64,000 nt of DNA from Burkholderiales bacterium (lineage in GTDB: Bacteria > Pseudomonadota > Gammaproteobacteria > Burkholderiales > Casimicrobiaceae). Positions 28,608-47,194 of the stretch are shown piece after piece (position 1 is the stretch's first letter; the number at the start of each line of letters is the position of its first letter). A program made the translations under genes and the position numbers. The notes below the pieces were generated by a model. That model saw only the letters and a program-made list of their open reading frames with translations. It was not told where the DNA came from and did no database searches. The stretch covers positions 1 through 64,000 of the forward strand of contig CAJPFI010000054.1 of the NCBI GenBank assembly GCA_905339295.1. The letters are read 5' to 3'.

Positions 28608-28997
28608 TCAGGCCTCCCCGAAGAAGAACTGCCAGTCCTCGACGTCGAGCGGCAGCCGCGCCTCGGGATTGGCCGAGAGCATCGCGAGCCAGCCCTGGTA
28701 GTCGCGCAGCAGCTCGGTGTGCGCCCGGAGCTTCGAGAGGCATTCGTCCAGGTGCTCGCGCAGGTCGTCGCGCACGGTGACGCGGTTGGCGCGCGACCAG
28801 TCCTGCGCCTTGGGGGTGGGGTAGGCCATCACGATCTTCTCGTCGATCTCGAGACCCTCGGAGCGGATCTTCGCGAGCACCTCCTCGCGCTTGCCGCGCC
28901 AGAAGGCGAGACGTTCCTCGTGGTGCGCGATCCTCGTTCGCGCGGCCTCCGCGAGACGTGCGGCCGTGTAGTCGAACTTCCAGTCCTTTCGTTGCAT
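28608..28997 (-). CDS. Uncharacterised partner of the DUF932 gene
   Basis: This 129-residue charged helical protein begins MQRKDWKFDYTAARLAEAA. Later segments are AFWRGKREEVLAKIRSEGLE and WLAMLSANPEARLPLDVEDW. AAAGGAG sits 4 bp before the ATG at 28997, and the promoter element at 29027 sits 29 bp upstream. A second ATG at 29033 would fall inside that element. It is first in a two-gene operon with DUF932. I do not recognise its family. Confidence 0.7.
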   Translation of the reverse strand: MQRKDWKFDYTAARLAEAARTRIAHHEERLAFWRGKREEVLAKIRSEGLEIDEKIVMAYPTPKAQDWSRANRVTVRDDLREHLDECLSKLRAHTELLRDYQGWLAMLSANPEARLPLDVEDWQFFFGEA

Positions 28998-29026
28998 GTG
29001 ACTCCTTTCCGTCGTTGCCGACGAAG

Positions 29027-29065
29027 CCATCATGCGGCGCGCGGTGGCTCAGGGGATGAGCCTGG
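29027..29065 (-). promoter_or_regulatory. Palindrome plus GCATGAT promoter element, copy 1
   Basis: Read on the minus strand: CCAGGCTCA, 5 bp, TGAGCCACC, 7 bp, GCATGATGG, then 29 bp to the ATG at 28997. CATGAT could be a -10; the palindrome covers the -35 position. Identical layout occurs at 30385-30423 and 46833-46871. Confidence 0.75.
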
Positions 29066-29172
29066 GGAACGGAGGGACACTCCGCGAACCGCGACGTCCC
29101 GCGAACGACCGTTCGCGCCATCGTCGCGGAACGCAACGGACTGCGACGCGCTCGACCGGGTGGCTCGAACCG

Positions 29173-29654
29173 ATGCGCATGACGATCCCTCCCGACGAGA
29201 AGCCGCTCGCGGCGGCGGGGAGGATTTCCGGGATGACCGGGCGCACGGCACTGATCCGCGAGGGGCGTCGGGCGCCGATCCCGCGCGAGAGCGCGCCGAG
29301 GTCCTGGCCGATACGTCGGTGTGGATCGACCATCTGCGACAAAGCGAACGTGGGCTGGCGGAAGCGCTCGACGCCGGGCGCGCGCTCGCGCACCCGGCGG
29401 TGCCGGGCGAACTCGCGTGCGCAAGCACGAAGCGCCGCGACGAGGTCCTGTCGCCGATGCGCGACCTCCCGCCGTCGCCGGTCGCGACCGGCGACGAGGC
29501 GCTGGCGTTCGTCGAGCGGGGCAGGCCGATGGCGCACGGGATCGGCTGCGCGGACGCCCGCCTGCCGGCGTCGCTCACGCTCGACGGAGCGGAGCGGCCG
29601 TGGACGCGCGATCGGCTACTCGCGAGCGCCGCGGGCGCGACGAAGCTCGCGTTC
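29173..29654 (+). pseudogene. Decayed vapBC toxin-antitoxin module
   Basis: The antitoxin remnant starts at 29173 (MRMTIPPDEK, ISGMTGRTALIREG), a recognisable VapB N-terminus. It runs into IPRESAP and then loses its C-terminus. In the +1 frame from 29301 a VapC PIN domain appears (DTSVWIDHLRQSERGL, VPGELACA, CADARL, TRDRLL) with all four acidic positions kept. But there is no start codon, it is joined directly to vapB by a deletion, and the normal stop after KLAF is lost. The module cannot be expressed as in the intact family. Confidence 0.7.
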
Positions 29655-29836
29655 GGCGCGGGGAATGGAAGGCGCGCCGGGCCGCGACCGGAGATCCGGT
29701 TCCGGCCGCGCTCAGGCGCGGCACGGGTTCCGAAGCAGTTCCGCTCGACTGTATCGAGACGGACGTTCGGCCTTCGCCGCCGCGACGTGCGCCTTCGAAG
29801 GCGCCGGATGCTTGCGGCGATTCGCGCCGCCGGCGC

Positions 29837-30355
29837 CTACTGCATGCCTTCGCCGCGACGAGCGGGAACCGGCAGCATCGATCCGGTCCCGGTCGTCGGA
29901 GCGCTGACCGCCTGCGCGGTGGCGGGCGACGCGCCAGCGGCGCTCGAAGGGGCGGATGTCGTGGCGGCGTCGGGCGCGGTCCTGACCGGCGGCGCCTCGC
30001 AGTCGGCGTCGCGCATCTGCTTTCGAATCGCCTGCTCCTCGCCCTTCAGGCGCGCGACGTCGCCTTCGAGCCCCGCGTTGTTGCCGAGCGCGAACAGCAC
30101 CGGCCAGAACAGGATCACGCCCACGCCGGTGACGACCGCGTCCTGCGTCGCCTTGTCGTTCAGCTTCGCGGATTGGGCGCGCAGCGCGTCCTGCACCTCC
30201 TCGAGCTCGCGCACCAGGCTCTTGCACGTGCGATCGGCGTAGCGGCTCGTCGAGACGTGGCTGGCGACGACGTTGTCCGGACGCGTCGCGCAACCCGGAA
30301 GCAGCAGCGCCGCGATCGTCAGCGCGGCGACGGTCCTCTTCGTGTTCATCGACAT
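29837..30355 (-). CDS. Lipoprotein with coiled coil and membrane segment
   Basis: The 172-residue protein has the lipobox LLLPGC (Cys22). The next segment is helical with charged heptads (RTCKSLVRELEEVQDALRAQ), then a hydrophobic stretch AVVTGVGVILFWPVLFALG, then LKGEEQAIRKQMRDADC. The tail is Ala/Thr/Pro-rich. GGAGG lies 8 bp before the ATG at 30355. The promoter element at 30385 lies 29 bp upstream, exactly as for the DUF932 operon. Function unknown; envelope location is likely. Confidence 0.75.
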   Translation of the reverse strand: MSMNTKRTVAALTIAALLLPGCATRPDNVVASHVSTSRYADRTCKSLVRELEEVQDALRAQSAKLNDKATQDAVVTGVGVILFWPVLFALGNNAGLEGDVARLKGEEQAIRKQMRDADCEAPPVRTAPDAATTSAPSSAAGASPATAQAVSAPTTGTGSMLPVPARRGEGMQ

Positions 30356-30384
30356 GACGGCTTCCTCCATCGCTTGTGATGGAG

Positions 30385-30423
30385 CCATCATGCTCAGCGA
30401 GGTGGCTCAGGAAATGATCCCGC
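30385..30423 (-). promoter_or_regulatory. Palindrome plus GCATGAT promoter element, copy 2
   Basis: On the minus strand: GCGGGATCA, 5 bp, TGAGCCACC, 7 bp, GCATGATGG, then 29 bp to the ATG at 30355. The first half-site is degenerate; the second and the GCATGAT box are the same as in copy 1. Confidence 0.72.
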
Positions 30424-30460
30424 CTCGACCGTTCGTCGGCGCGACAGCGCAGCAGCGCAC

Positions 30461-30492
30461 GCCGGGGCGCGAACGTTCGTTCGCGCCCCGGC
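30461..30492 (-). terminator. Strong hairpin after the VIT-VWA gene
   Basis: GCCGGGGCGCGAAC-GTTC-GTTCGCGCCCCGGC is a perfect 14-bp stem, 24 bp beyond the stop at 30517. No T-tract. Confidence 0.55.
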
Positions 30493-30516
30493 GTAACGCG
30501 GATGCCTGACGGGAAG

Positions 30517-32817
30517 TCAGCCGTGCTGCTCGTCGTGCGCGGTCATCGCCGATGCATGCCACTCGAGCACGATGTCGACTGACTCCGTCCGCAAACCCGT
30601 GCACTGCTCGGGAGTCGCGAACAGGTGCAGCATGGCGCGCAGGAGGTGGCGAGGCATCGACTTCAGCGCGCCGATGCTGGCGGCGCACTTTGCGAGAGCC
30701 TCGAGGAACGCGTCGACGGCCTCGCGTTCGACGGTTCCGTTCGCGACCCACGCGCGCAGGCGATCGGCGATGTCGCGAGGCATGCCGAGTCGCTCGAGCT
30801 CGGCGATCGAGCGCGGCAGATGTCCGGCACCGCGTGCCTGCAGGGCGCGCGCGAACGCTTCAATCGGGACTCCGCTCGCTCCGGGCGCGCTTCCCGTCTG
30901 GCCGGAGCTGCGCAACCGCGCGGACGGAGCGCCGACAGCCGGAACGCTCTCCAAATCGCCCTGACCGGGCGATTCGCCGGCCGAGAACCGGGGTCCGAAA
31001 TCGGCGTCGGCGTCGAGATCCTCGCATCGCAAGGCTTTCGCAGCGCGCGACGCCAGCGGCGCATGCCGGTCGAAGTCGAATTTAGCGCACATGGCGACGA
31101 CGCTCCCCATTCCATGCCATCCCGCCGCGTGCATCTGCGGGACGTGCGCGAGCCTGGGCATGTCGGTCGCCTTCTCGCCCGCCGCGCGCTCGTGCACGAC
31201 GATCAGGTTCGTCCGGTCGGTGAGCAGCTCGTAGTCGAGCGCGACCTGGAGCTTTTCGTCCTCGCCGGCGGCCTCGATCCGCCGTGCGGCCGCGATGCGC
31301 GCGAGCGTTCGGCCCTCGACGACCTCCGCGTCGAACTGCGCTGCGGCCGTGAGCGGCGGCGCGCCGTCCTTCGCGCGGAGCGCGAGGCTGACGGCTCCCG
31401 ACGGCGCCACATCGAAACCGGCGAACGCGTGGATCGTCTCGCCGCCGAAGAGTCCCTCCGGCAGCGGGGTAGTCCATGCGGGCGACGCGGGCCACGCGAT
31501 GTCGGCGCGCTCGACGCGCGGCGCGCGCAACCGGGCGAACATCCGCAGGATCGCCGCCTCGGCGTCCTCGTTGGGCGCGACGAACTCGCACGCGCCTCCG
31601 GTGGCTTCGGCCAGGCGGCGCAGCACGCCTTCCGCGGGCGCGCTGCCGATGCCGACCGCGAACACCCGCTGCCGCGAGCCGCGCGCCTCGGCGATCAGGT
31701 GGTCGGCATCCCAGACCTCGCCGTCGGTCAGGATCAGCACGTCGGCCGCGCCGTCCCTGCCCCCGATCGCGAACACGGACTTCAGTGCACCCGCCATTTC
31801 GGTTCCGCCGAGATCGGCGTCCATGCACCCGACCCGCTCGGCCGTCGTGCGCACGCGCCCCGCGTCGGCTGTCGACAGGCCGTCCGTTTCGTGCACGACG
31901 TGGCTGCCGAAGCGGGAGAACGAGAACCGGTCGGCCGGCTCGAGACTCGCGAGAATGCGATGCAGCGCGCGGCGCGCCGCATCGATGCTGTCGCCGCCCA
32001 TCGAGCCGGAACAGTCGACCAGGAGCTTGAGCCGCAGCGGGCGCTCGTCGGCCGACTTCGGCACGGCGGCGCAGAAGCTCGCGAGTGCGACGAACCTGTC
32101 CCCGTCCTTCGCGACGACGGCGAGCGAGCGCCCCGACAAGCCTCCGACCGCCAGCACGAAGTCCCGGTCGAGGAAGGCGTCGCGGGCAAGGGCGACGCGC
32201 ATGCCTTTCGCGGTCGCTTTCGTTGCGATGGCATGCGAAGGCGAGGCAATGGTCCCCCGCGCGATCTCGCCCTCGAGGTCGATGGCCAGCGAAAACGGGT
32301 ACGCGACGGCGAGGTCGTTCGTCGGGATCTGGTGCGCTTCGAGATGCGCCGCCTCCGGATCGCCGTAGCGCGGCGCGATCACGGTCGGGATCGCGAGGCG
32401 CACGGTGCCGTGCTCGAAGCGCAGCAGTTGCGCGTAGCGGTAGCGGATCGTCGCCGACTCACCGGCCATCAGGTTGCCGAGGTTGAGCGTGCACAGGCCG
32501 TCGCCCGCGCGCTCGAGCATGATCGCGGTGTCGCCCTTGTCGATCGCCTCCTCGTAGTCGCGCTCGGCCTGCTTTTTCTCGACGACGGTCGCGACGAGCC
32601 TGCGCTCGCCCAGCGTGATCTCGAGGTCGAGCAGCACCGCCTCGATCGGCAGCGGGAACGTGTAGACCGCCTCGACGTTCGCGTCCTGCGCGTTGCGGTA
32701 GCGCTGCAGGACGGCGAGCTCGAACAGCAGTCCGCGGACGGTGCCGCGAGCGTCGACGCGCTCGAGCGCCATCGACTCGCCGGTGGTGGTACGGAGCATT
32801 GCGGGTTGATCTCTCAT
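30517..32817 (-). CDS. VIT and VWA domain protein
   Basis: The 766-residue protein starts with a VIT domain (about 1-130; YTFPLPIEAVLLDLEI, EKKQAERDYEEAIDKG). A VWA domain follows at about 260-430 with the metal-site motif DCSGSMGG, GGTEM and ILTDGEVWD. The C-terminal 250 residues are less typical and end in a helical region. No signal peptide is present, so it is probably cytoplasmic. AAGGAG precedes the ATG at 32817. That ATG overlaps the stop of the upstream MerR gene (ATGA), so the two are coupled. Homologues bind metal-dependent partners, but the bacterial role is unknown. Confidence 0.85.
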   Translation of the reverse strand: MRDQPAMLRTTTGESMALERVDARGTVRGLLFELAVLQRYRNAQDANVEAVYTFPLPIEAVLLDLEITLGERRLVATVVEKKQAERDYEEAIDKGDTAIMLERAGDGLCTLNLGNLMAGESATIRYRYAQLLRFEHGTVRLAIPTVIAPRYGDPEAAHLEAHQIPTNDLAVAYPFSLAIDLEGEIARGTIASPSHAIATKATAKGMRVALARDAFLDRDFVLAVGGLSGRSLAVVAKDGDRFVALASFCAAVPKSADERPLRLKLLVDCSGSMGGDSIDAARRALHRILASLEPADRFSFSRFGSHVVHETDGLSTADAGRVRTTAERVGCMDADLGGTEMAGALKSVFAIGGRDGAADVLILTDGEVWDADHLIAEARGSRQRVFAVGIGSAPAEGVLRRLAEATGGACEFVAPNEDAEAAILRMFARLRAPRVERADIAWPASPAWTTPLPEGLFGGETIHAFAGFDVAPSGAVSLALRAKDGAPPLTAAAQFDAEVVEGRTLARIAAARRIEAAGEDEKLQVALDYELLTDRTNLIVVHERAAGEKATDMPRLAHVPQMHAAGWHGMGSVVAMCAKFDFDRHAPLASRAAKALRCEDLDADADFGPRFSAGESPGQGDLESVPAVGAPSARLRSSGQTGSAPGASGVPIEAFARALQARGAGHLPRSIAELERLGMPRDIADRLRAWVANGTVEREAVDAFLEALAKCAASIGALKSMPRHLLRAMLHLFATPEQCTGLRTESVDIVLEWHASAMTAHDEQHG

Positions 32818-33239
32818 GGTCCGGACTCCTTGTTCCTGATGTCGCGATAGAGCGCCTGCACGCCATTGAAGAACTCGCGCGCGTCCTCGGGAGAGAGGCC
32901 GGCGCGAGCGGGCTCCAGCGTGAGTTCGAGCCCGTCCGCGACCACCAGGTGACTCCACACCTCGACCGTGCCGGCCGCGCGGGGACGGGGAGGAACGGGC
33001 GGCGCCTCGCCCGACATCAACTCGCGGACGCGCTCGAGCGCCACGCCGGCGCCGGTCCACTTGCGGACCTCGAGCAGCTGCTCGACGTGGCGCGATCCGT
33101 AGCGGGCGGCGCGCGTCTCGCCGTCCGGGCGGTCGACCAGACCGAGCTGGATGTAGTAGCGGACCGTCCGCTTGGGCAGGTCGACCAGCGCGGCCAGCTC
33201 GTCCAGCGTGTGCGTCCGGGGGGCGTCGTCGGGCTTCAT
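32814..33239 (-). CDS. MerR-family regulator coupled to VIT-VWA
   Basis: This 141-residue protein has a MerR-type helix-turn-helix (TLDELAALVDLPKRTVRYYI, then QLGLVDRPDG). A region RYGSRHVEQLLEVRKW follows and the helical continuation VALERVRELMSG. It lacks the usual metal-binding cysteines. The C-terminal part (EVWSHLVVADGLELTLEP) may bind its partner. It is the first gene of an operon with the VIT-VWA protein and overlaps it by 4 bp. Its promoter lies almost at the start codon, so the mRNA may be leaderless. Confidence 0.85.
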   Translation of the reverse strand: MKPDDAPRTHTLDELAALVDLPKRTVRYYIQLGLVDRPDGETRAARYGSRHVEQLLEVRKWTGAGVALERVRELMSGEAPPVPPRPRAAGTVEVWSHLVVADGLELTLEPARAGLSPEDAREFFNGVQALYRDIRNKESGP

Positions 33240-33244
33240 GCAGC

Positions 33245-33274
33245 ATATTATGCCAGTTCTGGTGTCGCAATCAA
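33245..33274 (-). promoter_or_regulatory. Promoter of the MerR/VIT-VWA operon
   Basis: On the minus strand TTGATT (33274-33269) is followed at 16-18 bp by CATAAT/TAATAT (to 33245). The spacer holds the palindrome CCAG-AA-CTGG (33253-33262), a possible autoregulatory site. The ATG at 33239 is 5 bp beyond the -10, which predicts a leaderless transcript. Confidence 0.55.
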
Positions 33275-33520
33275 GGTCCGTTCGTCGGCCACACCGGGCA
33301 GGATCCTGCGCCGGGGGATGGGTCAGGGCGCGAGCCTGCCCAGGTGCAGCCAGGCCGGGATGCACCGCCCGGACGACGCCGTTGGCCGGCCGGCACGGGG
33401 TCGCAGCCTATAATCGTCGCGGCGATCGGGCGTTCGCCTTCCCGGCGAACGGGCCGCGGCGACGGCACGATGCCGACGGCGGTCCTGACCCGGCCGGACC
33501 GTCGACCCCCCACGCCATCG

Positions 33521-33793
33521 ATGAAACCCACCGACCTCCAGAAGCAGCAGGGCAAGAAGACCGTCGGCGCGATGAAGCGCGAGCCGACACCCGAGCGCTA
33601 CGGCGCCAACTCCGCGGCTCCCGCCGACAGGCGCGACCAGCGCGAGAAGGACAAGGCCGCGGGTCTCGTCCCGTTCGCGATCAAGCTGCCCCAGGAGCTG
33701 GTCGGCTCGCTGCAGGCGCTCGCGCAGTCGCGCGGCGTATCGCTCAACGAGGTCGCTGCCGACCTGCTGCGCAAGGGCATGGCGAAGAAGTAG
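33521..33793 (+). CDS. Small conserved hypothetical protein
   Basis: The 90-residue protein starts MKPTDLQKQQGKKTVGAMKR, is charged, and ends with a helical segment LVGSLQALAQSRGVSLNEV and ADLLRKGMAKK that could form a ribbon-helix-helix-like fold. A perfect TATAAT lies at 33409-33414, about 107 bp upstream. Similar small proteins occur in Burkholderiales, without known function. The ATG at 33521 was chosen over a Pro/Arg-rich upstream extension. Confidence 0.65.
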   Translation: MKPTDLQKQQGKKTVGAMKREPTPERYGANSAAPADRRDQREKDKAAGLVPFAIKLPQELVGSLQALAQSRGVSLNEVAADLLRKGMAKK

Positions 33794-33920
33794 CGTGCAT
33801 CCACGACGGATGCGTCGTGCGTTTCCCGTCGGGCGATCCGGCCCTGACGCGGCCCTCCGGTCCCCATCGGGCCCCGCACGGGCTACCATCGCTGCTGTCG
33901 GGGGGGCGAAGGAGACTGCC

Positions 33921-34850: not shown

Positions 34851-34883
34851 CTTCGGGGCGCCGCACGCCCGACTTCGTGCGCT

Positions 34884-35044
34884 GTGGGTCGGGCTGAAGC
34901 CCGACGATCGGGCGAAGCCGATCTCGCGAAGCCCGTCGGGCTGAAGCCCGACCCACGACAGCGTCCCATGTCGGGCTGAAGCCCGACCCACGACGGCGTC
35001 CCGCGGACGCCGCGCGGCACTTGTGGGTCCGGCTTCAGCCGGAC
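34884..35044. repeat. REP-like palindrome cluster 2
   Basis: GTCGGGCT-GA-AGCCCGAC occurs at 34888-34905, 34935-34952 and 34970-34987; the variant GTCCGGCT-TC-AGCCGGAC closes it at 35027-35044. Most are extended by GTGGGT or ACCCAC, as in clusters 1 and 3. Confidence 0.9.
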
Positions 35045-35105
35045 GAATCGCGGTCAGCCGATCGGCCGAAGGCGGCCGCGGGGCACCACGGCGGAGACTC
35101 GCCCG

Positions 35106-35694: not shown

Positions 35695-35784
35695 ATGCCG
35701 GAGCAGCCTGACCTTCCGCCGGACGGGCACCGGCTCGCGTCGCGAGGCGTGCCGGCGCTCGCGCTCGAGGCTGCGACCTAGGCC

Positions 35785-35827
35785 TTTCGGATGATTGCGC
35801 GGAGGCGTAACGTTTCCGATGATTCCG
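35785..35827 (+). promoter_or_regulatory. Direct repeats before the lipoprotein-RTX unit
   Basis: TTTCGGATGATTGCG (35785-35799) and TTTCCGATGATTCCG (35813-35827) match at 13 of 15 positions, 28 bp apart, about 100 bp before the start at 35923. A regulator could bind both on nearly the same face of the helix. No clear sigma-70 pair was found. Confidence 0.45.
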
Positions 35828-35922
35828 TCACATCGAAGTGCCGTTGGAACGTTGCCCGGGGTGTGGCGCGAATCGTCTGTCGACCCGCGTCGTCGAGTCG
35901 ACGCTGTCCAGCGGAGGTGACC

Positions 35923-36378: not shown

Positions 36379-36385
36379 CAAAACC

Positions 36386-39300
36386 GTGTCCGTATTAGCT
36401 ACGTTTCTCCATTCGGAGTTGGCATTCGCTGCCTACGCGGCGAATCTCTCAACTCAGGTGCAGGATCGAGATCTAACGGCGACGGGATTCGCAGCAGCTC
36501 ACGCAACTCGATTCGCGTCCGAATGGCTAGTTGTCGATTATTACGAGCACGGCTCGGAACCGTACTGGGTGTATGACCCCAACACCGGCCAGCCAGACGG
36601 TCCATATACAGAGAGCAACGGACTCGCCGCAACCGTATTCCAGAATATTGCCACCGGCGAGCGCGTTCTTGCGATCCGCGGGACCAACGATATTCACGAC
36701 GTTGGCACGGACGTTGTGTCGATCGCGGCACTGGGCTCCAGCAAGAACCAGGGGCAGTACCAGTCGCTTCGCCTCAAGGTCCAGGAATGGGTCACGAACG
36801 GCGTCCTGCCGTCGCAATTCGCCGTCACCGGCCACTCGCTGGGCGGATTCCTCGCCATCGGGCTTGCGCTCGAGTTTCCGCACGTCGTCGACCACGCGTA
36901 CCTCTACAACGCGCCGGGCCTGGGCGGTCTGACGAACCGCACGGTCCTCGACCAGATCGCCCGCATCTATCACATCACCGGCGGGAGCTACGACCCCGCG
37001 AAGTTCTCGAATGTTCGCGCGAAGCCGGGCACATCGCTGGTCGCCGGCCTTGGGACGCATCCGGCGTCGCCAATCCTCATCGAGGGCGAGGACCACGGCG
37101 GGCTCCTTATCGGGACCGACAACCATTCGATCAAGTATCTGGTCGATTCGCTCGCGATCCACGACGCCTTCGGCAGGCTGTCGCGCGACGACGCCTTCGC
37201 CACGATCGGCCGGCTCATTGCGGGATCGAGCGATCGGGCGCTCGGCAAGCTCGAGGGCGCGCTCGATGCGCTGCGCGCCACGTTGCTCGGAGGATCGGTG
37301 GCGCGAACCCCGGAGGAGAACCGGGACGCGCTGTTCCAGAACCTCCATGACCTGGCTGATGCCACCGGCTACCAGGCGCTGCTCTCTCGCGTGAACCTGA
37401 GGTCCGTCGGGGAGCTCGACCACGAGTCGCTCGCCTCGAACGCCAACGGCAGCCTCGGCGCCCTCGTCGCCCTGCGCCTCCTCGCCCCCTTTCAGCTGGG
37501 CAATGCGGACGCGCAGCTCGCCAGCGCGCACCCGGCGCTCGCCGCCGCGCTCCAGCACGATGCCGCGCTCGCTCCGTTCCGGCGAGACGCGGACGCCTAC
37601 TACTCCGGGGCCTGGCGGGCCGAGCGGGCGCGCCTGCTCGCGACGGTCGTCGCGCGTAACGAGGTGAACGGCGCTCCGGATCGCGCGCGCCGGTCGCCCA
37701 TGCTGCGCATGTATCGCGACCTCGAAGCCGGGCTCGCGCTCGACCCGCGTCCGCCGGATCGCCGGACCGCGCCGATCACGCAGGTCGCGTTCGGGCGCGA
37801 GGACGCAGGCAACACGATCGCCGGATCGCCGCTCGCGGACATCCTGTTCGGGGGCGCGCAGTCGGACAGCCTGAGCGGCGGCGGCGGCGCCGACCACCTC
37901 GAAGGGCGCCAGGGCGGCGACGTGCTGCGGGGAGGAGACGATGGCGACCGGCTGTTCGGGGGCGAAGGCGTCGACCTCCTCTACGGCGACGCCAGCGACG
38001 ATCGACTGTTCGGCGGCGAAGGCGCCGACGCGCTCGAGGGAGGCGCGGCCGACGATCTGCTCGACGGCGGCCGCGGCATCGACCAGCTTCGCGGTGGAGA
38101 AGGCTTCGACACCTACCGGATCCGCAGCGGCGACGGCAAGGACACGATCCTGGACTCGGATGCGCGCGGTCGCATCACCCAGGTCGACGCGAGCGGAGGC
38201 ACGATCGCGATCGCCGGCGTCGCAATGGCGGACCGCTCGGCCGCCAATCGCTGGTCGGTGCTCCTGGGCAGCGGCGTCGACGTCGTCGCGACGCGCAATT
38301 CCCCGCTCACGCTCACGATGCCCGACGGCACGCAGGTCGTCGTGGACGACGACCGCGAGGGCGCGCTCGGCATCACGCTGCTTCCGGACATTCCCGACCA
38401 GGCGACGACGAACACGATCCTCGGCGACCGCAATGCGGACCGTCGCGACACCCTTGCCGGCACGGCGTCGAACGACCTGATCGACGCGGGTGCGGACACG
38501 GACGCCGTGCTCGCGGGCCCCGGCGCGGATCGGGTGAAGGGCGGCGCAGGCCGCGACCGGCTCGACGGCGAGGCGGGCGACGACGTCCTTGAGGGCGGCA
38601 GCGAGGCGGACATCCTTGAGGGGGGCGCAGGTCGCGACCGTCTGTTCGCGGACGCCGCGTCGACGCTCGACCCGCTCGCTGCAGTCCGGGCCGCTGTCGC
38701 GTCAGCCGGATCGCCGACGGGTGCGCAGGGCGACTGGCTCTCCGGAAACGACGACGCCGACGTCCTGATCGGAGGTCTCGGGAACGACGGACTCGCCGGC
38801 GGGCAGGGCACGGACGTCCTCGTGGGCGGTGCCGGCGACGATTCGCTTCTCGGCGACGCGGACATCGCGCCCGTGTCGGGGACATGGGGGTTCAGCGACG
38901 TCGACGTGAACGGCGTGCTCACGCGCACGTTCACCGGCATGGACGACGGCGCCGGCGATCCCGTTGGCGGAGGCGGCGACAGCCTCTACGGCGGAACGGG
39001 AGCGGATTTCGCGTGGGGCGGCCGCGGAGACGATGCGATCTTCGGCGAAGCCGGGCACGACTTCCTGCAAGGCGACGCAGGCGCCGACGTGCTGGTCGGC
39101 GGCGACGGCAATGACCGGCTCGCGGGAGACGGCTCGGCGACGACGACGGGAGCCGATCAGGGCAACGACTTTCTCGACGGCGGCGCGGGCGACGACCGGC
39201 TCACGGGAGGAGGAGGAAGCGACGACCTCCTCGGCGGAGACGGCGACGACATCCTCGTCGGCGACGACACGACCGATCGCGTACCCGCCACGTTCCACGG

Positions 39301-42300
39301 CGCGGACCGGCTCGACGGCGGCGACGGCGACGACATCCTGAGCGGCGGGTTCGGCGCCGACGAGCTCATCGGCGGCGCAGGCAACGACACGATCGCGGCC
39401 GACCTGGCAGGCGTGGCGGGCGGCGGGGACGACATCGTCGACGCAGGCGACGGTGACGACATCGTCGATGCCGGCACGGGCAACGATCGCGTCGCCGGCG
39501 GCAGCGGTGCAGACCACCTCGACGGCGGCGACGGCCACGACGAGATCGCCGGCGACGACGGCGCGGACATCCTTGCAGGCGCCGCCGGCGACGACCTGCT
39601 CGAAGGCGGGTCCGACGACGACGAACTGTTCGGCGGCGACGGGCTCGACACGCTCGACGGCGGCGATGGCGACGACGCCCTGTCCGGCGGCGGCGGAGAC
39701 GACGACCTGCTCGGCGCGTCCGGCGACGACGGGCTGCACGGTGACGTCGGCGACGACCGGCTGTCCGGCGAGGACGGCGAGGACTATCTCGACGGCGGCG
39801 CAGGCAACGACGACCTCCACGGCGGCGACGGTACCGACGCGCTCGCCGGCGGCGCGGGAGACGACGTCCTCGACGGTGGCGGCGGCAAGGACCTGCTGAT
39901 GGGGGGTGCGGGCACGGATCGCTATCTGCTTGCGACCGACGGCCAACCCGACTTCCTCGCCGAGCTCGACGCGAGCGACGTCATCGTCGTTCCCGACGGC
40001 ATCGGAGCCTCGGCGCTCGACTTCCAGCGTGCATCCGACGAGTTCGGCAACGCCGGGCATCTCGCGATCCTCTCCGGCAATCAGCTGCTCGCGATAGCGC
40101 TGGACTGCCCGGACGACGGACGCCCGGAGATCCGGCTCGCCGACGGCACGATCATCGCCAGGACCGACATCGATTCCGCACTCGCCCGGCATCCGACGCT
40201 GGTCGTTCCGATCACGCTTCCGTCGTACCGCGGCGCGGGATCCGCCGCGATCGACGTCATGAGCTCGGCAGGCGGCGACTCCCGGCTCTCGGGCGGCGGC
40301 GGCGACGACACGCTGACCGGCAGCGTGTCGAGCGACGCGCTCGACGGCGGCGAGGGCGACGACGTTCTCGCCGGCGCCGGAGGCAGCGACACGCTGACCG
40401 GCGGCGCGGGCAACGACACGCTCGACGCCGGCGAGGGCGACGACACGCTCGATGGCGACGACGGCGACGACCGCCTCGCGGCGGGCGCAGGTGACGACGA
40501 GGTGAGCGGGGGCGCGGGCAACGACACGATTCTCGGCGACGCGGGCGCGGATCGGCTCGCGGGTGGCGATGGCGACGACACGATCGACGGCGGCATCGGG
40601 CGCGACACGATCGCGGGCAACGCGGGCAACGATGCCCTCGCCGGCGGCGACGGTAACGACAACCTCGACGGTGGCGGCGGCAACGACACGCTGAACGCGG
40701 GCGCCGGCAACGACACGCTGACCGGTGGCCCGGGCGACGACCTGCTCGACGGAGGCGAGGGCGACGACTCGTTCGTCGTCGACGGCCTCGGCAACGATCG
40801 CGTGCGCGACGCGGAAGGCGTGTCGACGGTGCGGTTCTCGGCCGGAATCGCTGCCGCGTCGCTCACGCTCGCCCGCGGCGCCGCCGGCTCCGCTGACGAG
40901 CACGCATTGATCGTCGACTTCGGCGGCGACAATCGCGTGACGATCGAGAATGGCCTGCGCGGCGGTCCCTCGCGCTACGTGTTCGACGACGGCACCGTCC
41001 TGGCACGCGCGCAGCTTCTCGACCTGCGGTGGTCCTCCGCGCTCACGCTGTCGGCCGACACGGCGCACCGCCAGGTCGCGGGTGGCGGGGGCGCGGATAC
41101 GCTGTCGGCCGGCAGCGCGATGTCGGTCGATCTCCGTGGCGGCGGCGGCAACGACTCGATCGCCGGCAGCCCGCTCGCCGACCTGCTCTCGGGCGATGGC
41201 GGCAGCGACCGGCTTACCGGCGACGCGGGCGACGATACGCTTCGGGGCGGCGCAGGCGGCGACACCCTCGACGCCGGGACGGGCGCCGACACCCTGTGGG
41301 GCGACGACGGCGACGACACGCTCGCCGGCGGCGACGGCGACGACCAGCTCGTGGGCGGGGCCGGCAACGACACGTTCGCGTCCGACGCCGGCAACGACGT
41401 TGCGCTCGGCGGCATGGGCGACGACATCTACCGCTTCGGTGCGGGCGCCGGCTACGACGTCGTCGTCGACACCGAGGGCGCGAACCGCGTGCGCTTCGCC
41501 GCCGGCCTGCGTTCGTCCGATGTCGCGTTTCGCGCCAGCGGCGACGACCTGATCGCGGCACTGGCGGATGGCAGCCGTCTGCTCATGCGTTACGCGATAT
41601 CTCCGCTGGGCGAAGTCACGCCGACGCGAATCGACACGTTCGAGTTCGACGGCGAGACGCTCACGCTCGCGCAGGCGCGGGCACGGGCGACCGCGTTCGT
41701 TGCGGGCGACCCGCTGCCGTCGGCCGTGGCCATTCCGACGATCGGCACCGGCGGCGACGACACGCTCGGCGGGGCGATCGCCTGGGGCCTGGACGGCGAC
41801 GACCGGCTCATCGGCGCGCGCCAGATCGGCGGGCCGGGCGACGACACGCTCGAGGGCGGCCGGGCGTTCGTCTTCGGCCGTGGCGACGGCCACGACACCG
41901 TGCAGGTCTGGAATCCGTGGTCGAAACAAACGGCCGCGACGCTGCCGTCGTGGATCGAGATGCAGCCCGGCGTCTCGGCGACCGACCTCGCGTTCGGCAT
42001 GGACGGGCGCGATCTCGTCGTCACGATCCGCGACACGGGCGACTCGGTCAGGGTACTCGGCCATTTCGAGCGCTCCGGCGCCTACCCGGCGTTCTCGTAT
42101 CCGTCGGCGATCGCAGGCATCCGGTTCGCCGACGGCACCACGACCGGCTTCGACGCGATGGCGTTCGCGATCGGTGTCGGCACCGACGGCGACGATCGCC
42201 TCGGCAGCGTTTCGGTGCTGCTCGACGACATCCGTGCCGGCGACGGCGACGACACGGTGACGCTGCACGAAACGATCGCATACGTCTACGGCGGCGACGG

Positions 42301-45300
42301 CGACGACACGCTCGCGGCCGACCCGTACCTGCCGGGCGACCGTTCGCGCCTGCACGGAGAAGGCGGCAACGACACGCTGGTCGCGGGATCCGCGAACGAC
42401 GCGCGCACCGAGCTCTACGGCGGCGACGGGAGCGACCGGCTGGTCGGCCATCCCGGCGCGCGGCTCGACGGCGGTCCCGGCGACGACCGACACGAACTGT
42501 GGGGCGGCGCGACCGGCGGCGCGATCGGCGTGCTGTTCGCGCGCGGCAGCGGACGCGACTCGATCACGTTCGGCGCGGACGAGTCGACGACTGCAAGCGG
42601 CCTGCGCTTCGAGATCCGCCTGCCGCAGGGCGACTACCGCGATCTTCTCGTCGAGCGCGACGACGACGACCTCGTGCTGCGCATCCGCGACCGCGACGAC
42701 AGGGTCGCCGTGCCGGATTTCTTCGCGGATGGCGCGCAACGCTCCGGGATGACGCAGCTCGCGCTCCTGCAGGCGGGAACCGGGTTCGTGCTGGCGGGCT
42801 CGCCTGACGCGGAGGCCCTCGCCGCACGCGCCGTCGTCGCGACTGCCATCGCGCAGACATGGTCGGGCGACGAAACTTCGGAGCTCCGCGTCGCCGCGGG
42901 CGGCAGCGATTCGCTCGATGGCGGCGGCGGCGACGACGAGATCGACGGCATGTCCGGCGACGACACGCTGTCGGGCGGTGCGGGCGACGACCTGATCCTC
43001 GGCCGGGGCGGCAACGACACGATCGACGGCGGCGACGGCGACGACGGGATCGCCGGCGGGCGCGGAGACGACGTGCTTCGGGGCGGCGCGGGGCACGACC
43101 GCATCGTCGACGCCTACGGCGACAACGTCGCCGACGGCGGCGAGGGCGATGACCTGGTCCGCCTCGAAGGCGCGTCCGGGCTCGCGCGCGGAGGCGCCGG
43201 GAACGATTCGCTCATCGCCTTGAACGGCAATCACCTGCTGATGGGCGACGACGGCGACGACACGCTCGCCGCCACGTCGGGAACGGTCGAGCTCGACGGC
43301 GGCGCGGGCGACGACATGCTCTCGATCGGCACCGCCGCGAGCGCGGTTGTGCACGTCGGGCGCGGGAGCGGCAACGACATCGCGGGCATCGGGGCATTCC
43401 GTGAGGGTGCGATCCGCGAGATTCGCATCGGCGCGGGCATCGCCCCGTCGCATGTCGCGATTCACCGCGAGAACGGGGATCTCGTCCTGTCGCTTGTCGG
43501 GTCCGGTGACACGTTGCGCGTGCGCTCCGGCTTCTCCGGCGAGCAATCCGCCGTCGACCGGATCCTGTTCGCCGACGGAGGGTCGCTCGACGTCGGGATG
43601 ATCCTGGCGCTCGCACGCCAGGGCTCCGGATTCGACGACGAGCTGATCGGCACGCCCGGCGACGACACGCTGTCGGGACTCGACGGCAACGACGTCGTCG
43701 ATGGCCGCGCAGGGAACGACTCCCTCTCCGGCGGCGCGGGCGACGACTCGCTCATCGGCGGCCTCGGCAACGACTTCCTCGACGGCGGCGCCGGTGCCGA
43801 CCGCATGACCGGCGGCTCGGGCGACGACGTGTACGCCTCCGACGACGCGGGCGACACGATCCTCGAACTCGCAGGCGAGGGCACCGACGAGCTCCGCACG
43901 TCGATCACGCGCGCAATGCCCGCCAACGTCGAACGTCTCCGGCTCACCGGCAGTGCCGACATCGGGGCCTACGGCACCGCGGGCAACGACGACCTCGTCG
44001 GAAACCCGGGACGCAACCTCCTTGTGGGCTATGGAGGCATCGACCGGCTCGCGGGCGGCGCCGGCGACGACACCTATTCGGTCACCGACAATGGCGACAC
44101 GATCGTCGAGCTCGCGAACGAGGGCGTCGACTCCGTGCAGGCGACGTTCACGTCCGCGCTCGGAGCGAACCTCGAGAATCTGCAGCTCGTCACGACCGCC
44201 GCCGTCGACGGCACCGGCAATGCGCTCGACAACGTGCTGACCGGCGGCGCGGGCGCGAACGTGCTGACCGGCCTTTCCGGCGACGACACGCTCGACGGGG
44301 GCGCGGGCGCCGACCGCCTGGTCGGCGGCGCCGGCAACGACACCTACACGATCGACCAAACCGGCGACATCGTCGTCGAGGTCGCGGGCGAGGGCGTCGA
44401 CACCGTGCGGGCATCGCTCTCGTTCGTGTTGCCCTCCGACCTCGAGAACCTCGTGCTGCTCGGCAGCGCGGCGCTCAACGCGACCGGCAATGCGGCCGCG
44501 AACCGGCTGACAGGGAATGCCGGCGCGAACGTCCTGGACGGCAAGGCGGGGGCCGATGCGATGGCGGGTGGCAAGGGCAATGACACCTATGTCGTCGACG
44601 CCGCCGCGGACGCGGTCTCCGAGCTCGCGAGCGAAGGGACCGACCTCGTGCAGTCGTCGGTGAGCTTCGTTCTCGCCGCCAACGTCGAGAACCTGACGCT
44701 CGCCGGCAGCGCGGCAATCGACGCGACCGGCAACGCCATGGTCAACACGCTCGTCGGGAATGCCGGCGCGAACACGCTCGACGGCGGCGCCGGCGCCGAT
44801 GCGATGCGCGGCGCCGCCGGCGACGACACGTATGTCGTCGACTCGTCCGGCGACATCGTCACCGAGAACGCTTCCGAAGGCGCCGACACGATTCGCTCAA
44901 CGATCGGCTGGACGCTGGGCAACAACCTCGAACGCCTCGAACTGACGGGTTCGGCGGCCGTCAACGCGACCGGCAATGCGCTCGCCAACGCGCTCACCGG
45001 CAACGCCGCGAACAACGTCCTCGACGGCAAGGCGGGCGTCGACACGATGCGCGGCGGCGCCGGCAACGACACCTACGTCGTCGACGCGACCGGCGACATC
45101 GTCACCGAGAACGCGAACGAGGGCATCGACCTTGTCCGGTCGTCGGTCACCTGCACGCTCGCCGCGAACGTCGAGAACCTGACGCTCACCGGAACCGCGG
45201 CGATCAACGCGACCGGCAACGCGTTGACCAACGTGCTCACCGGCAACGCCGCGGGCAACGTCCTCGACGGCAAGGCGGGCGCCGACACGATGCGCGGCGG

Positions 45301-46555
45301 CGCCGGCAACGACACCTACGTCGTCGACGCGACCGGCGATATCGTCACCGAGAACGCGAGCGGGGGCGTCGATCTCGTGCAGTCGTCGGTCGGGTATGCG
45401 CTCGGCGCCAACGTCGAGAACCTGACGCTCACCGGGAACGCGGCGATCAACGCCACCGGGAACTCGCTGGCCAATGGGCTCGCCGGCAATGCCTCGGACA
45501 ACGTCCTCGACGGCAAGGCCGGCGTGGACACGATGCGCGGCGGCGCGGGCAACGACACCTATGTCGTCGACGCGACGGGTGACGTCGCCGTGGAGAACGC
45601 CGGCGAAGGCAACGATCGCGTGCAATCGTCGGTCACGTTCACGCTCGGCGCGAACGTCGAGGAACTCACGCTCACCGGCACGTCGACGATCAGCGGCACC
45701 GGCAACGCCCTGTCGAACGCGCTCACGGGCAACGCGGCGGCGAACGCGCTCGTCGGCGGCGACGGCAATGATCTCGTGTGGGGCGCGGGCGGCAACGACA
45801 CGCTTTCCGGCGGCTACGGCAACGACGTGCTGCAAGGCGGCGACGGCAACGACGCGGTCGGCGACACCGCGGGCGGCAACCTCGTCGACGGCGGGCTCGG
45901 AGCGGACACGCTCGCCGGCGGCGCGGGGCGCGAGCTGTTCATCGGCGGCAGCGGTGACGACACGATCACGGCGGGCAGCGGCGCCGACGTGTTCGCACTG
46001 AACAAGGGCGACGGCAAGGACACGATCGTCGCGACGGCGGGCGCCGACGACACGCTGTCGCTGGGCGGGGGGATCCGTTACGCGGACCTCGGCCTGCGCA
46101 GGGTCGGCAACGACCTCGTGCTCGACGCCGGCGTCGACCAGGTTTCGCTGAAGGACTGGTACCTCGCGACCGGGAATCGTCGAATCGCGCAGCTGCAGTT
46201 CGTCACGGACGCCTCGCCGGATTACCTGTCGTCGTCCGCCGATCCGATGCGCAATGCCCGCGTGACGCGGTTCGATTTCGCCGAGGTGGTCGGGACATTC
46301 GACGTGGCGCTCGCAGCGAATCCGGCGCTGACGCGGTGGACGGTCGCCGACGCGCTCGCGGGTGCCTTCATCGCCGGCGCCGACTCGGCCGCGCTCGGCG
46401 GCGACCTCGCGTACCGGTACGGTCACGGAGGAAGTCTCGCCGGCATCGGATTCGATGCCGCCGCCTCGATCCTCGGCGACACGAGCTTCGGGCTCGCGCC
46501 GCAGACGTTCATCGCGCCTGCGACGCTGACCGCCGGCCCGCGGCTGCTGCGCTGA
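36386..46555 (+). CDS. Giant RTX protein with N-terminal class-3 lipase domain
   Basis: The 3389-residue protein starts at GTG. Residues about 1-470 form an alpha/beta lipase with the elbow TGHSLGG (Ser151), RGTNDIHDVGTD ahead of it and YNAPGLGG after it. From about 475 there are at least ten blocks of GGxGxDxLx nonapeptides that bind calcium and fold outside the cell. At least five HCBP-like spacers are interleaved, such as DLVVTIRDTGDSVRVL. Eight 81-residue repeats follow (43826-45796). The C-terminus after DASPDYLSSSADPMRNARV is the kind seen on T1SS-secreted proteins. No transporter genes are nearby. Confidence 0.9.
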   Translation: MSVLATFLHSELAFAAYAANLSTQVQDRDLTATGFAAAHATRFASEWLVVDYYEHGSEPYWVYDPNTGQPDGPYTESNGLAATVFQNIATGERVLAIRGTNDIHDVGTDVVSIAALGSSKNQGQYQSLRLKVQEWVTNGVLPSQFAVTGHSLGGFLAIGLALEFPHVVDHAYLYNAPGLGGLTNRTVLDQIARIYHITGGSYDPAKFSNVRAKPGTSLVAGLGTHPASPILIEGEDHGGLLIGTDNHSIKYLVDSLAIHDAFGRLSRDDAFATIGRLIAGSSDRALGKLEGALDALRATLLGGSVARTPEENRDALFQNLHDLADATGYQALLSRVNLRSVGELDHESLASNANGSLGALVALRLLAPFQLGNADAQLASAHPALAAALQHDAALAPFRRDADAYYSGAWRAERARLLATVVARNEVNGAPDRARRSPMLRMYRDLEAGLALDPRPPDRRTAPITQVAFGREDAGNTIAGSPLADILFGGAQSDSLSGGGGADHLEGRQGGDVLRGGDDGDRLFGGEGVDLLYGDASDDRLFGGEGADALEGGAADDLLDGGRGIDQLRGGEGFDTYRIRSGDGKDTILDSDARGRITQVDASGGTIAIAGVAMADRSAANRWSVLLGSGVDVVATRNSPLTLTMPDGTQVVVDDDREGALGITLLPDIPDQATTNTILGDRNADRRDTLAGTASNDLIDAGADTDAVLAGPGADRVKGGAGRDRLDGEAGDDVLEGGSEADILEGGAGRDRLFADAASTLDPLAAVRAAVASAGSPTGAQGDWLSGNDDADVLIGGLGNDGLAGGQGTDVLVGGAGDDSLLGDADIAPVSGTWGFSDVDVNGVLTRTFTGMDDGAGDPVGGGGDSLYGGTGADFAWGGRGDDAIFGEAGHDFLQGDAGADVLVGGDGNDRLAGDGSATTTGADQGNDFLDGGAGDDRLTGGGGSDDLLGGDGDDILVGDDTTDRVPATFHGADRLDGGDGDDILSGGFGADELIGGAGNDTIAADLAGVAGGGDDIVDAGDGDDIVDAGTGNDRVAGGSGADHLDGGDGHDEIAGDDGADILAGAAGDDLLEGGSDDDELFGGDGLDTLDGGDGDDALSGGGGDDDLLGASGDDGLHGDVGDDRLSGEDGEDYLDGGAGNDDLHGGDGTDALAGGAGDDVLDGGGGKDLLMGGAGTDRYLLATDGQPDFLAELDASDVIVVPDGIGASALDFQRASDEFGNAGHLAILSGNQLLAIALDCPDDGRPEIRLADGTIIARTDIDSALARHPTLVVPITLPSYRGAGSAAIDVMSSAGGDSRLSGGGGDDTLTGSVSSDALDGGEGDDVLAGAGGSDTLTGGAGNDTLDAGEGDDTLDGDDGDDRLAAGAGDDEVSGGAGNDTILGDAGADRLAGGDGDDTIDGGIGRDTIAGNAGNDALAGGDGNDNLDGGGGNDTLNAGAGNDTLTGGPGDDLLDGGEGDDSFVVDGLGNDRVRDAEGVSTVRFSAGIAAASLTLARGAAGSADEHALIVDFGGDNRVTIENGLRGGPSRYVFDDGTVLARAQLLDLRWSSALTLSADTAHRQVAGGGGADTLSAGSAMSVDLRGGGGNDSIAGSPLADLLSGDGGSDRLTGDAGDDTLRGGAGGDTLDAGTGADTLWGDDGDDTLAGGDGDDQLVGGAGNDTFASDAGNDVALGGMGDDIYRFGAGAGYDVVVDTEGANRVRFAAGLRSSDVAFRASGDDLIAALADGSRLLMRYAISPLGEVTPTRIDTFEFDGETLTLAQARARATAFVAGDPLPSAVAIPTIGTGGDDTLGGAIAWGLDGDDRLIGARQIGGPGDDTLEGGRAFVFGRGDGHDTVQVWNPWSKQTAATLPSWIEMQPGVSATDLAFGMDGRDLVVTIRDTGDSVRVLGHFERSGAYPAFSYPSAIAGIRFADGTTTGFDAMAFAIGVGTDGDDRLGSVSVLLDDIRAGDGDDTVTLHETIAYVYGGDGDDTLAADPYLPGDRSRLHGEGGNDTLVAGSANDARTELYGGDGSDRLVGHPGARLDGGPGDDRHELWGGATGGAIGVLFARGSGRDSITFGADESTTASGLRFEIRLPQGDYRDLLVERDDDDLVLRIRDRDDRVAVPDFFADGAQRSGMTQLALLQAGTGFVLAGSPDAEALAARAVVATAIAQTWSGDETSELRVAAGGSDSLDGGGGDDEIDGMSGDDTLSGGAGDDLILGRGGNDTIDGGDGDDGIAGGRGDDVLRGGAGHDRIVDAYGDNVADGGEGDDLVRLEGASGLARGGAGNDSLIALNGNHLLMGDDGDDTLAATSGTVELDGGAGDDMLSIGTAASAVVHVGRGSGNDIAGIGAFREGAIREIRIGAGIAPSHVAIHRENGDLVLSLVGSGDTLRVRSGFSGEQSAVDRILFADGGSLDVGMILALARQGSGFDDELIGTPGDDTLSGLDGNDVVDGRAGNDSLSGGAGDDSLIGGLGNDFLDGGAGADRMTGGSGDDVYASDDAGDTILELAGEGTDELRTSITRAMPANVERLRLTGSADIGAYGTAGNDDLVGNPGRNLLVGYGGIDRLAGGAGDDTYSVTDNGDTIVELANEGVDSVQATFTSALGANLENLQLVTTAAVDGTGNALDNVLTGGAGANVLTGLSGDDTLDGGAGADRLVGGAGNDTYTIDQTGDIVVEVAGEGVDTVRASLSFVLPSDLENLVLLGSAALNATGNAAANRLTGNAGANVLDGKAGADAMAGGKGNDTYVVDAAADAVSELASEGTDLVQSSVSFVLAANVENLTLAGSAAIDATGNAMVNTLVGNAGANTLDGGAGADAMRGAAGDDTYVVDSSGDIVTENASEGADTIRSTIGWTLGNNLERLELTGSAAVNATGNALANALTGNAANNVLDGKAGVDTMRGGAGNDTYVVDATGDIVTENANEGIDLVRSSVTCTLAANVENLTLTGTAAINATGNALTNVLTGNAAGNVLDGKAGADTMRGGAGNDTYVVDATGDIVTENASGGVDLVQSSVGYALGANVENLTLTGNAAINATGNSLANGLAGNASDNVLDGKAGVDTMRGGAGNDTYVVDATGDVAVENAGEGNDRVQSSVTFTLGANVEELTLTGTSTISGTGNALSNALTGNAAANALVGGDGNDLVWGAGGNDTLSGGYGNDVLQGGDGNDAVGDTAGGNLVDGGLGADTLAGGAGRELFIGGSGDDTITAGSGADVFALNKGDGKDTIVATAGADDTLSLGGGIRYADLGLRRVGNDLVLDAGVDQVSLKDWYLATGNRRIAQLQFVTDASPDYLSSSADPMRNARVTRFDFAEVVGTFDVALAANPALTRWTVADALAGAFIAGADSAALGGDLAYRYGHGGSLAGIGFDAAASILGDTSFGLAPQTFIAPATLTAGPRLLR
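43826..45796 (+). repeat. 243-bp tandem repeat in the RTX gene, eight units
   Basis: Units start at 43826, 44069, 44339, 44582, 44825, 45068, 45311 and 45554. All are 243 bp except the second, which is 270 bp because it gained one nonapeptide-sized piece. Each encodes DTYVVDATGDIVTENA-type sequence, VENLTLTG and LDGKAGADTMRGGAGN. Units from 44825 to 45311 are nearly identical in DNA. The first two are more diverged. Confidence 0.9.
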
Positions 46556-46832
46556 CGCCAGAGGGCGTGGCCCCTGACCGGGGCGCGAACCGGACGCCGA
46601 ACGGCGCGCCGCCGTCTCGGGCGCGGTCGTGCCACCCGGGGAGGACGGCCTCGAGGGTAACTCTCCGCCCATCGGTCTCGAGGGCGACCCGCGGACATCG
46701 CCGACCTCGCCCGGCCCCTACCGGCCCGGACTCGCACGATCCACCGACCGGACCGGCGTCCTGCCCTGCACGGCCCCGCCGCGCCGGCTCCTCGCGGCCT
46801 CCAGGGGGTGACGACTCCCGGCCCGGCGCCGG
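46556..46832. other. Gap after the RTX gene
   Basis: No gene or clear terminator was recognised in these 277 bp. Confidence 0.4.
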
Positions 46833-46871
46833 GGTGGCTCACGTACTGAGCTACCAGCCGCCGCATGATCC
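46833..46871 (+). promoter_or_regulatory. Palindrome plus GCATGAT promoter element, copy 3
   Basis: GGTGGCTCA, 5 bp, TGAGCTACC, 7 bp, GCATGATCC, then 32 bp to the ATG at 46904. This copy has the most complete palindrome and is on the opposite strand from the other two. Confidence 0.75.
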
Positions 46872-46903
46872 GGCCTCGTCCCCCGCACGAAGGCGAGGCC
46901 GCC

Positions 46904-47194
46904 ATGTCCCGACCGCCGGATCTACCCTGCACTCGCCACGCCCGCGCACGAATGCAGCAGCGCGGCATCCCGCCGATGCTGGTCGACCGCGTGCTGCGAT
47001 ACGGGCGCGAGGTCCACGATCATCACGGTGCGACGGTCTACCTGATCGACCGGGCGGCCCGGGCCCGGATCTCGCGCGAGGGCGAGGCGCGCGGCCCCGA
47101 GCTCGAGCGCCTGCGCGGCGTCTACGTGGTCGTCGCGACCGATGGCGCGATCCGCACCGTCGGTCATCGCACGCGGCGGCTGCGCCGCCATTGA
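46904..47194 (+). CDS. DUF4258 domain-containing protein
   Basis: The 96-residue protein has the DUF4258 pattern: H-R-RMQQRGIPPMLVDRVL near the N-terminus and GREVHDHHGATVYLID. The end, YVVVATDGAIRTVGHRTRRL, gives the typical beta strand. The family is related to mRNA-interferase-like folds but has no known role here. The ATG at 46904 fits the promoter distance. It precedes the WYL regulator gene by 234 bp. Confidence 0.78.
   Translation: MSRPPDLPCTRHARARMQQRGIPPMLVDRVLRYGREVHDHHGATVYLIDRAARARISREGEARGPELERLRGVYVVVATDGAIRTVGHRTRRLRRH

Follow-up and report, generated by a model that had tools for sequence, protein, structure and literature searches.

Three copies of one element and the genes behind them

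The window analysed here is a stretch of 64,000 nucleotides from a bacterium of the Burkholderiales (contig CAJPFI010000054.1). Three sites in it, S1 to S3, match the pattern TGAGCYACC-N7-GCATGATSS without a mismatch, at 29027-29051 (-), 30385-30409 (-) and 46847-46871 (+), where the first-pass annotation of the sequence had placed a shared promoter element; when up to three mismatches were allowed, the pattern search of the window gave four matches against 0.29 expected. The fourth, at 33301-33325, was discarded as chance, having three mismatches and no intact palindrome. The features under discussion are as follows.

27601-28605, minus strand: second gene behind S1, with a GTG start, encoding a DUF932 / TIGR03299 protein
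28608-28997, minus strand: first gene behind S1, encoding a protein of 129 aa that has no Pfam or NCBIfam match
29029-29034, minus strand: -10-like hexamer CATGAT of S1, 8 bp after TGAGCCACC, assigned in part from the positional enrichment of [TC]ANNNT
29043-29065, minus strand: site S1, putative operator CCAGGCTCA-N5-TGAGCCACC, with the palindrome core at 29046-29062
29837-30355, minus strand: gene behind S2, encoding a lipoprotein of 172 aa that has no Pfam match
30387-30392, minus strand: -10-like hexamer CATGAT of S2
30401-30423, minus strand: site S2, putative operator GCGGGATCA-N5-TGAGCCACC, with the palindrome core, one mismatch, at 30404-30420
46833-46855, plus strand: site S3, putative operator GGTGGCTCA-N5-TGAGCTACC, with the palindrome core at 46836-46852
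46864-46869, plus strand: -10-like hexamer CATGAT of S3
46904-47194, plus strand: gene behind S3, encoding a DUF4258 protein
47429-48409, plus strand: WYL regulator of 326 aa (HTH_11-WYL-WCX), the proposed reader of S1-S3

Checked against the sequence, the distances from element to ATG were indeed those of the annotation, 29 bp for S1, 29 bp for S2 and 32 bp for S3. Its further claim of a mirrored half-site 5 bp before the shared half holds in full for S3 only, which has the complete half GGTGGCTCA; those of S1 (CCAGGCTCA) and S2 (GCGGGATCA) are incomplete. The spacing of 7 bp between TGAGCYACC and GCATGATSS, described there as fixed, is identical in the three window sites, but relatives have either 7 or 8 bp to the -10-like box. 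The annotation had also suggested a search of the genome and its relatives: the exact element was found three times in the 4,028,452-base genome, always inside the window, and further copies were found in other genomes. The 25 other matches in the genome carry two or three mismatches, and a reversed-pattern control gave 16; many matches of this quality, here and in relatives, were set aside as chance because their palindrome is not intact.

No homologue of the 129-aa protein encoded by the first gene behind S1 turned up in a search of 149 loci, a set that includes some duplicates. A homologue of the DUF932 protein, in L182, has a site with one mismatch upstream, and so does a homologue of the lipoprotein in a genome of the same genus (L159 of G004; 88% identity over 123 aa). 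DUF4258, which according to PMC11980606 belongs to the RelE/ParE superfamily and is of unknown activity, was found in 16 of the loci; in seven a site with at most one mismatch lies directly upstream (6 of 13 when duplicate loci are removed), and in several others there is a small gene between the site and DUF4258.

Other features of the window may be recorded here. The stretch 36386-46555 is an open frame of 3389 aa whose first 538 residues match a model of RTX calcium-binding repeats; from antisense frames spaced 243 bases apart (44344-45801) it seems to contain an 81-codon unit repeated in tandem. Stretches of the form GAACG-NN-CGTTC occur upstream of both S1 and S2 (29103-29114 and 30471-30482); judged by eye, they lie within hairpin-like inverted repeats, which are possibly the terminators of neighbouring transcripts. 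A suspicion that they represent an alternative LexA box was dropped, since by eye they resemble hairpin stems.

Association of the palindrome with a WYL regulator gene

The core of the element is the palindrome GGCTCA-N5-TGAGCC with softer GT/AC flanks, followed 7-8 bp after TGAGCCACC by a -10-like YANNNT. At two mismatches or fewer the element is matched in 26 of 399 genomes of the order, and in many of these the differences fall outside GGCTCA-N5-TGAGCC. Among 20 element neighbourhoods fetched from other genomes, eight encode a regulator beginning M[DN]RTERFY; these eight proteins and the WYL protein of the window, at 52-73% identity to the first row, make up alignment A1. To avoid circularity, test loci were collected by this alignment alone, the best 80 being kept. 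Two of them (L113 and L151), which overlap genomes of the training set, were dropped, giving 78 loci and 828,282 bases, and L131, with a partial WYL gene, was also left out of the counts of site density, of the tree and of [TC]ANNNT boxes. L159, which was kept, comes from G004, a genome in which the site had been noticed beforehand.

Among the 4096 6-mer palindromes with a 5-bp spacer, GGCTCA-N5-TGAGCC ranks first in these loci, with 38 sites in 27 of the 78; the runner-up occurs in seven. At 0, 1 and 2 mismatches it gives 38, 48 and 38 sites respectively, against 0, 0-7 and 38-71 for six control palindromes. Sites with at most one mismatch gather around the WYL gene: in 77 loci, 31 lie in the 250 bp before it, 26 in the 250 bp after it, none within the gene and 29 in the rest of the sequence, corresponding to densities of 1.62, 1.38, 0 and 0.041 per kb, and near-exact copies are about 37-fold denser beside the gene than elsewhere. 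Such a site is found near the WYL gene in 46 of the 77 loci and is absent in 31. Symmetric variants of the palindrome also adjoin WYL genes, GTGTCTCA-N5-TGAGACAC in L117 and AGTAGCTCA-N5-TGAGCTACT in L176, L184 and L189, as would be expected of the operator of a dimer. At a spacer of 8 the top palindrome is CTGCGC-N8-GCGCAG, in 19 of the 78 loci, which may lie in coding sequence.

The 399 genomes sampled from the order were also scored for a WYL profile match at E<=1e-90 and for exact GGCTCA-N5-TGAGCYAC. Both were found in 50, the WYL gene only in 80, the exact element only in nine and neither in 260 (Fisher p=2.5e-19), or 40, 80, 9 and 260 without the training genomes (p=3.9e-15), both p values ignoring shared ancestry. 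The WYL gene is therefore present in 130 genomes, 80 of them without the exact element, and nine of the 59 element-positive genomes have no WYL match at this threshold. In at least one of these nine (G061) the site stands directly before the start of a WYL-like HTH that falls below the cut-off; the others may reflect chance, other paralogues or assembly gaps. In the window's genus the WYL gene occurs in 7 of 22 genomes, and the four genomes in which the pattern search of the genus gave an intact palindrome are all among those seven. Site presence does not follow clades in a tree of 78 WYL proteins, with 21 changes against a shuffled mean of 24.3 (56 of 500 shuffles as low), and no clade-specific origin of the link was found in it. 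At the level of sequence, it is strongly supported that the neighbouring WYL-type regulator reads the element.

The window protein has the architecture of a WYL-domain transcription factor (N-terminal HTH, WYL, WCX), with Pfam matches to WYL (4.3e-21) and WCX (9.4e-16); HTH_11, at 4e-5 and 23.8 bits, falls just under the cut-off of 25. Its AlphaFold model has a pLDDT of 82.9 and a pTM of 0.59, so that the orientation of the domains in it is unsure. The top Foldseek matches are structures of DriD (8tp8, 8tpk and 9pfv; E 5.5e-17 to 8e-16, TM about 0.6), the best being 8tp8 (E 5.5e-17, 21% identity, TM 0.61), followed by PafBC, CapW and BrxR; in sequence as in fold comparison the activators PafBC and DriD rank above BrxR and CapW. 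The arginine pair F-R-x-D-R-[IM] (W-R-L-D-R-M in DriD) is absent from the window protein, which has S203 and A206 instead, and a 36-sequence profile reads f-a-v-d-a-i opposite R201/R204 of PafC and both arginines of the DriD chains. This pair is reported to bind ssDNA in PafBC (PMC11804915); given its absence, the signal here may not be ssDNA.

Promoter architecture and mode of control

The 77 protein-selected loci contain 86 distinct palindromes, in whose selection neither box nor orientation was used. On their 172 sides, [TC]ANNNT occurs at offset 27 in 44 cases and at offset 28 in 25, against a mean of 3.5 (range 0-8) at the 21 other offsets from 17 to 39, and 67 of the 86 palindromes carry a -10-like box on at least one side. 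The flanks are biased too: A comes first after TGAGCC on 99 of the 172 sides and G or C second on 147, and flanking letters played no part in the selection of protein-chosen loci. For 53 oriented sites with a Shine-Dalgarno-like start, the box lies at offset 27 in 14 and at offset 28 in 21, against a background of 0.84 per offset, though these figures and the flank figures of the same sites are partly circular, since some of the loci were found with a pattern that includes GCATSAT or TGAGCYAC; the 28 that come from protein-selected loci give 10 and 6 respectively. When GGCTCA-N5-TGAGCYAC was the sole criterion and each genome contributed one locus, 20 of 30 showed the box at offset 27 or 28. 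Within the offset-28 class of oriented sites, G precedes the hexamer in 17 of 21.

The palindrome has its centre near -32 or -31, and the start codon follows that centre by 48-67 bp in 39 of the 53 oriented sites. No good sigma-70 -35 hexamer was found there, the best match being at most 3/6 in 34 of 35 sites. The view of the first-pass annotation that a dedicated factor reads a palindrome taking the place of the -35 gains support, its binding being what we infer.

Quite probably, S1-S3 are sites of a homodimeric WYL-family activator, the product of 47429-48409, and each is coupled to its -10 box; that the protein would be a dimer, bind here and activate rather than repress is likewise what we infer. 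The two winged helices of the dimer would grip GGCTCA and TGAGCC, flanking a -35 position without a good sigma-70 hexamer, and, in the manner of Caulobacter DriD, the dimer would hold housekeeping RNA polymerase on the weak -10 (YANNNT) that lies 7-8 bp further on. In the window it would drive the DUF932 operon, the lipoprotein gene and DUF4258, with the regulator gene itself downstream.

It is improbable that the same WYL protein is instead a repressor, like BrxR and CapW, blocking the promoters until a ligand frees it. According to PMC9122601, the inverted repeat bound by BrxR does share the 5-bp spacer seen here, and the many sites immediately upstream of the WYL gene (31 within 250 bp) would suit autorepression. 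A repressor, however, needs neither a preferred distance of 7-8 bp to the -10 nor a missing -35 hexamer, both of which an activator would be expected to show, and the ranking of PafBC and DriD above BrxR and CapW also favours activation.

Two candidate readers had been named in the annotation, this WYL regulator and an ECF sigma factor encoded at 48979. The first is strongly supported by the rank of its palindrome, by site density and by co-occurrence. The second, encoded 2 kb downstream of S3, would have to read the element as a dedicated -35/-10 pair, which is very hard to credit and was rejected: a tblastn search (E<=1e-4) of the 149 loci surrounding the element or the WYL gene gave no homologue, what is conserved is a symmetric palindrome, ill-suited to an ECF promoter, and the downstream box looks like a sigma-70 -10. 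Scarcely any weight falls on RNA hairpins (terminators or attenuators) in place of operators: GTGGCTCA-N5-TGAGCCAC could form an 8-bp stem and 26 sites fall in the 250 bp that follow the WYL gene, but the enrichment is of one letter sequence and not of any pairing stem, the -10-like box and the start codons keep their preferred distances, and by eye no T-run stands behind the window copies. 

Target genes and relation to known WYL systems

Genes behind the sites were picked by a heuristic based on start codon, Shine-Dalgarno-like sequence and codon-position GC, and not by a trained gene finder. Two runs of a search of the window's genome with the -10 pattern (controls 2 and 0) gave further sites outside the window. 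That at C33:53166 precedes an open frame, cut by the end of the stretch, to which TIGR03623 ('probable DNA repair protein') gave a match of 3e-84 with 283.8 bits against a cut-off of 299.6; that at C4:53411 precedes hsdM, with one palindrome mismatch and the imperfect box GAACAT; and that at C5:150114 precedes the gene for a beta-propeller protein. No site at one mismatch or fewer was present in the recA stretch of this genome that was examined.

In other genomes, by Pfam and NCBIfam, RecA is encoded behind a site in G097 and in G002, the latter of the window's genus, where it starts 188 bp from the palindrome centre; some other genes are also more than 100 bp off. RecC is encoded behind sites in L106 and L127, and in G018, again of the same genus, a site precedes DUF4258 with RecC next. 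Other repair-type genes behind sites specify SSB and a helicase with an MrfA zinc-binding domain (MZB), and two metallophosphoesterases resemble, on our reading, Mre11/SbcD. PD-(D/E)XK and NucS-like nucleases are found as well as HIRAN, and defence-type genes are those for Cas1 of type I-F, Cas3 and DNA methylases. Sir2, ribonucleotide reductase, 5'-nucleotidase, ARPP-1 and an SbmA/BacA-like transporter also occur, DUF932 and DUF4258 recur, and at least eight of the proteins scanned have no Pfam match (those of L237, L095, L099, L101, L212, L160, L162 and L262). The site before Cas3 of L189 has two mismatches; given this and the starts more than 100 bp off, single target assignments are less sure than the whole. 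The presence of repair genes among the targets (RecA, RecC, SSB, Mre11/SbcD-like, MZB helicase, NucS-like and TIGR03623-like) is a trait of a DNA-damage regulon. The small regulon of accessory genes envisaged in the first-pass annotation is too narrow a description, since the element elsewhere precedes core DNA-repair, CRISPR-Cas and DNA-modification genes, and the window's own genome has extra sites before the TIGR03623-like gene and hsdM.

Several side observations concern these neighbourhoods. The WYL gene and/or the palindrome adjoins CRISPR-Cas genes (Cas3, Cas1 of type I-F) in L097, L189, L207 and L180, and by eye in L219, neighbourhoods that come from several unrelated families. A protein family of about 350 aa beginning MGEIV[NS]P, whose genes start 53-54 bp after the palindrome centre, is found in L237 (the same gene as in L213), L137 (as in L214) and L211; L237, the one tested, has no Pfam or NCBIfam match. 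Another, of about 60 aa (...NGLKLM.AIRRIC.RAAAEGKT.VRPATLR), follows the element in Sulfuricella relatives (L105, L104, L114, L115 and L117), with DUF4258 nearby. In G412 the palindrome occurs 20 times, and in the three contigs fetched (L234-L236) it lies near a contig end as part of one repeated stretch (GGCTCTTTTCGCAAACCGTGTT...) that may be the end of an insertion sequence. G200 (L082 and L085) has four copies of one site; the copy that was read precedes a gene for an IS1595-type zinc-ribbon transposase, suggesting that the element promoter may have been captured by transposons.

Outside the window the regulator would drive the TIGR03623-like DNA-repair gene and probably hsdM. Judging from the sequences compared, genes for DNA repair, CRISPR, DNA modification and stress in Betaproteobacteria appear to be under a WYL-type regulator that acts in parallel to SOS, and with accessory effectors these would form a LexA-parallel regulon. 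LexA is encoded in the window's genome (7.2e-69) and was found in all ten genomes tested, above the family cut-off in nine, so that the WYL system would run alongside SOS. The LexA operator is CTGT-N8-ACAG; LexA, though present, was rejected as reader because GGCTCA-N5-TGAGCC differs from that sequence. The signal would be DNA damage or foreign DNA, damage being read from the targets alone since the arginine pair is replaced in the window's WYL family. More tentatively, one WYL activator branch with its own operator could constitute a second, LexA-independent SOS-like system of Betaproteobacteria. It would place homologous recombination (RecA, RecC, SSB, SbcD-like), the adaptation and interference steps of CRISPR (Cas1, Cas3), restriction-modification and RelE-like effectors of the DUF4258 type under a signal sensed unlike ssDNA in PafBC/DriD, and its promoter would have been captured by transposons.

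The element is taken to be a real and widespread operator-promoter that belongs most probably to a DriD-like WYL activator, and its operator sequence appears to be new: among the matches listed in a search of the WYL-regulator literature, neither this operator nor a described regulon for this WYL group was found. A large group of WYL regulators (130 of 399 genomes sampled from the order) would thereby gain an operator, a promoter layout and a list of targets, DNA repair and CRISPR-Cas would be tied to one regulator, DUF4258 and DUF932 proteins would gain a regulatory context, and promoters would be at hand for probing what is sensed by a WYL domain that lacks the known ssDNA arginines.

Among known systems, PafBC of mycobacteria acts at the promoter TTGTCRGTG-N8-TANNNT and has recA as a target. 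It is likewise a WYL activator that opens its own class of promoters to the housekeeping polymerase, and the layout of a 9-mer, N8 and a TANNNT-like box resembles that found here; it differs in being a heterodimer, whereas the window protein is a single gene product with a palindromic site, and in the R201/R204 pair of PafC, which is not conserved. BrxR and CapW, WYL regulators of BREX and CBASS, share the WYL domain and the link to defence genes, and BrxR the inverted repeat with a 5-bp spacer, but BrxR is a repressor whose repeat lies downstream of the -10, and both give weaker fold and sequence matches. SiwR of Mycobacterium smegmatis is described in PMC10693628 as a homodimeric WYL activator tied to genotoxic stress, whose site, an imperfect palindrome of 19 bp, lies in the region from -35 to -10; it governs a neighbouring dinB-like operon in Actinobacteria.

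The closest parallel is DriD of Caulobacter crescentus, the best structural match, of 327 against 326 aa and with the same HTH-WYL-WCX order. According to PMC12340889, DriD sites overlap the -35 at a constant distance to weak -10 elements, sigma region 4 is sandwiched between two DNA-binding domains in cryo-EM, and the site at driD also serves a divergent operon. Here, too, a pseudo-palindromic site is centred on a poor -35 at constant distance to a weak -10, with two spacings instead of one, the targets include DNA repair, and in some loci the regulator's site is common to a divergent operon. The differences are the 21% identity in the fold alignment, the absence of the ssDNA arginine pair, and the operator, which is given for DriD as ATACGAC-N7-GTCGTAT and is here GGCTCA-N5-TGAGCC, or GTGGCTCA-N5-TGAGCYAC with its flanks; and the targets here reach beyond those of DriD to CRISPR, DNA methylases, recC and DUF4258.
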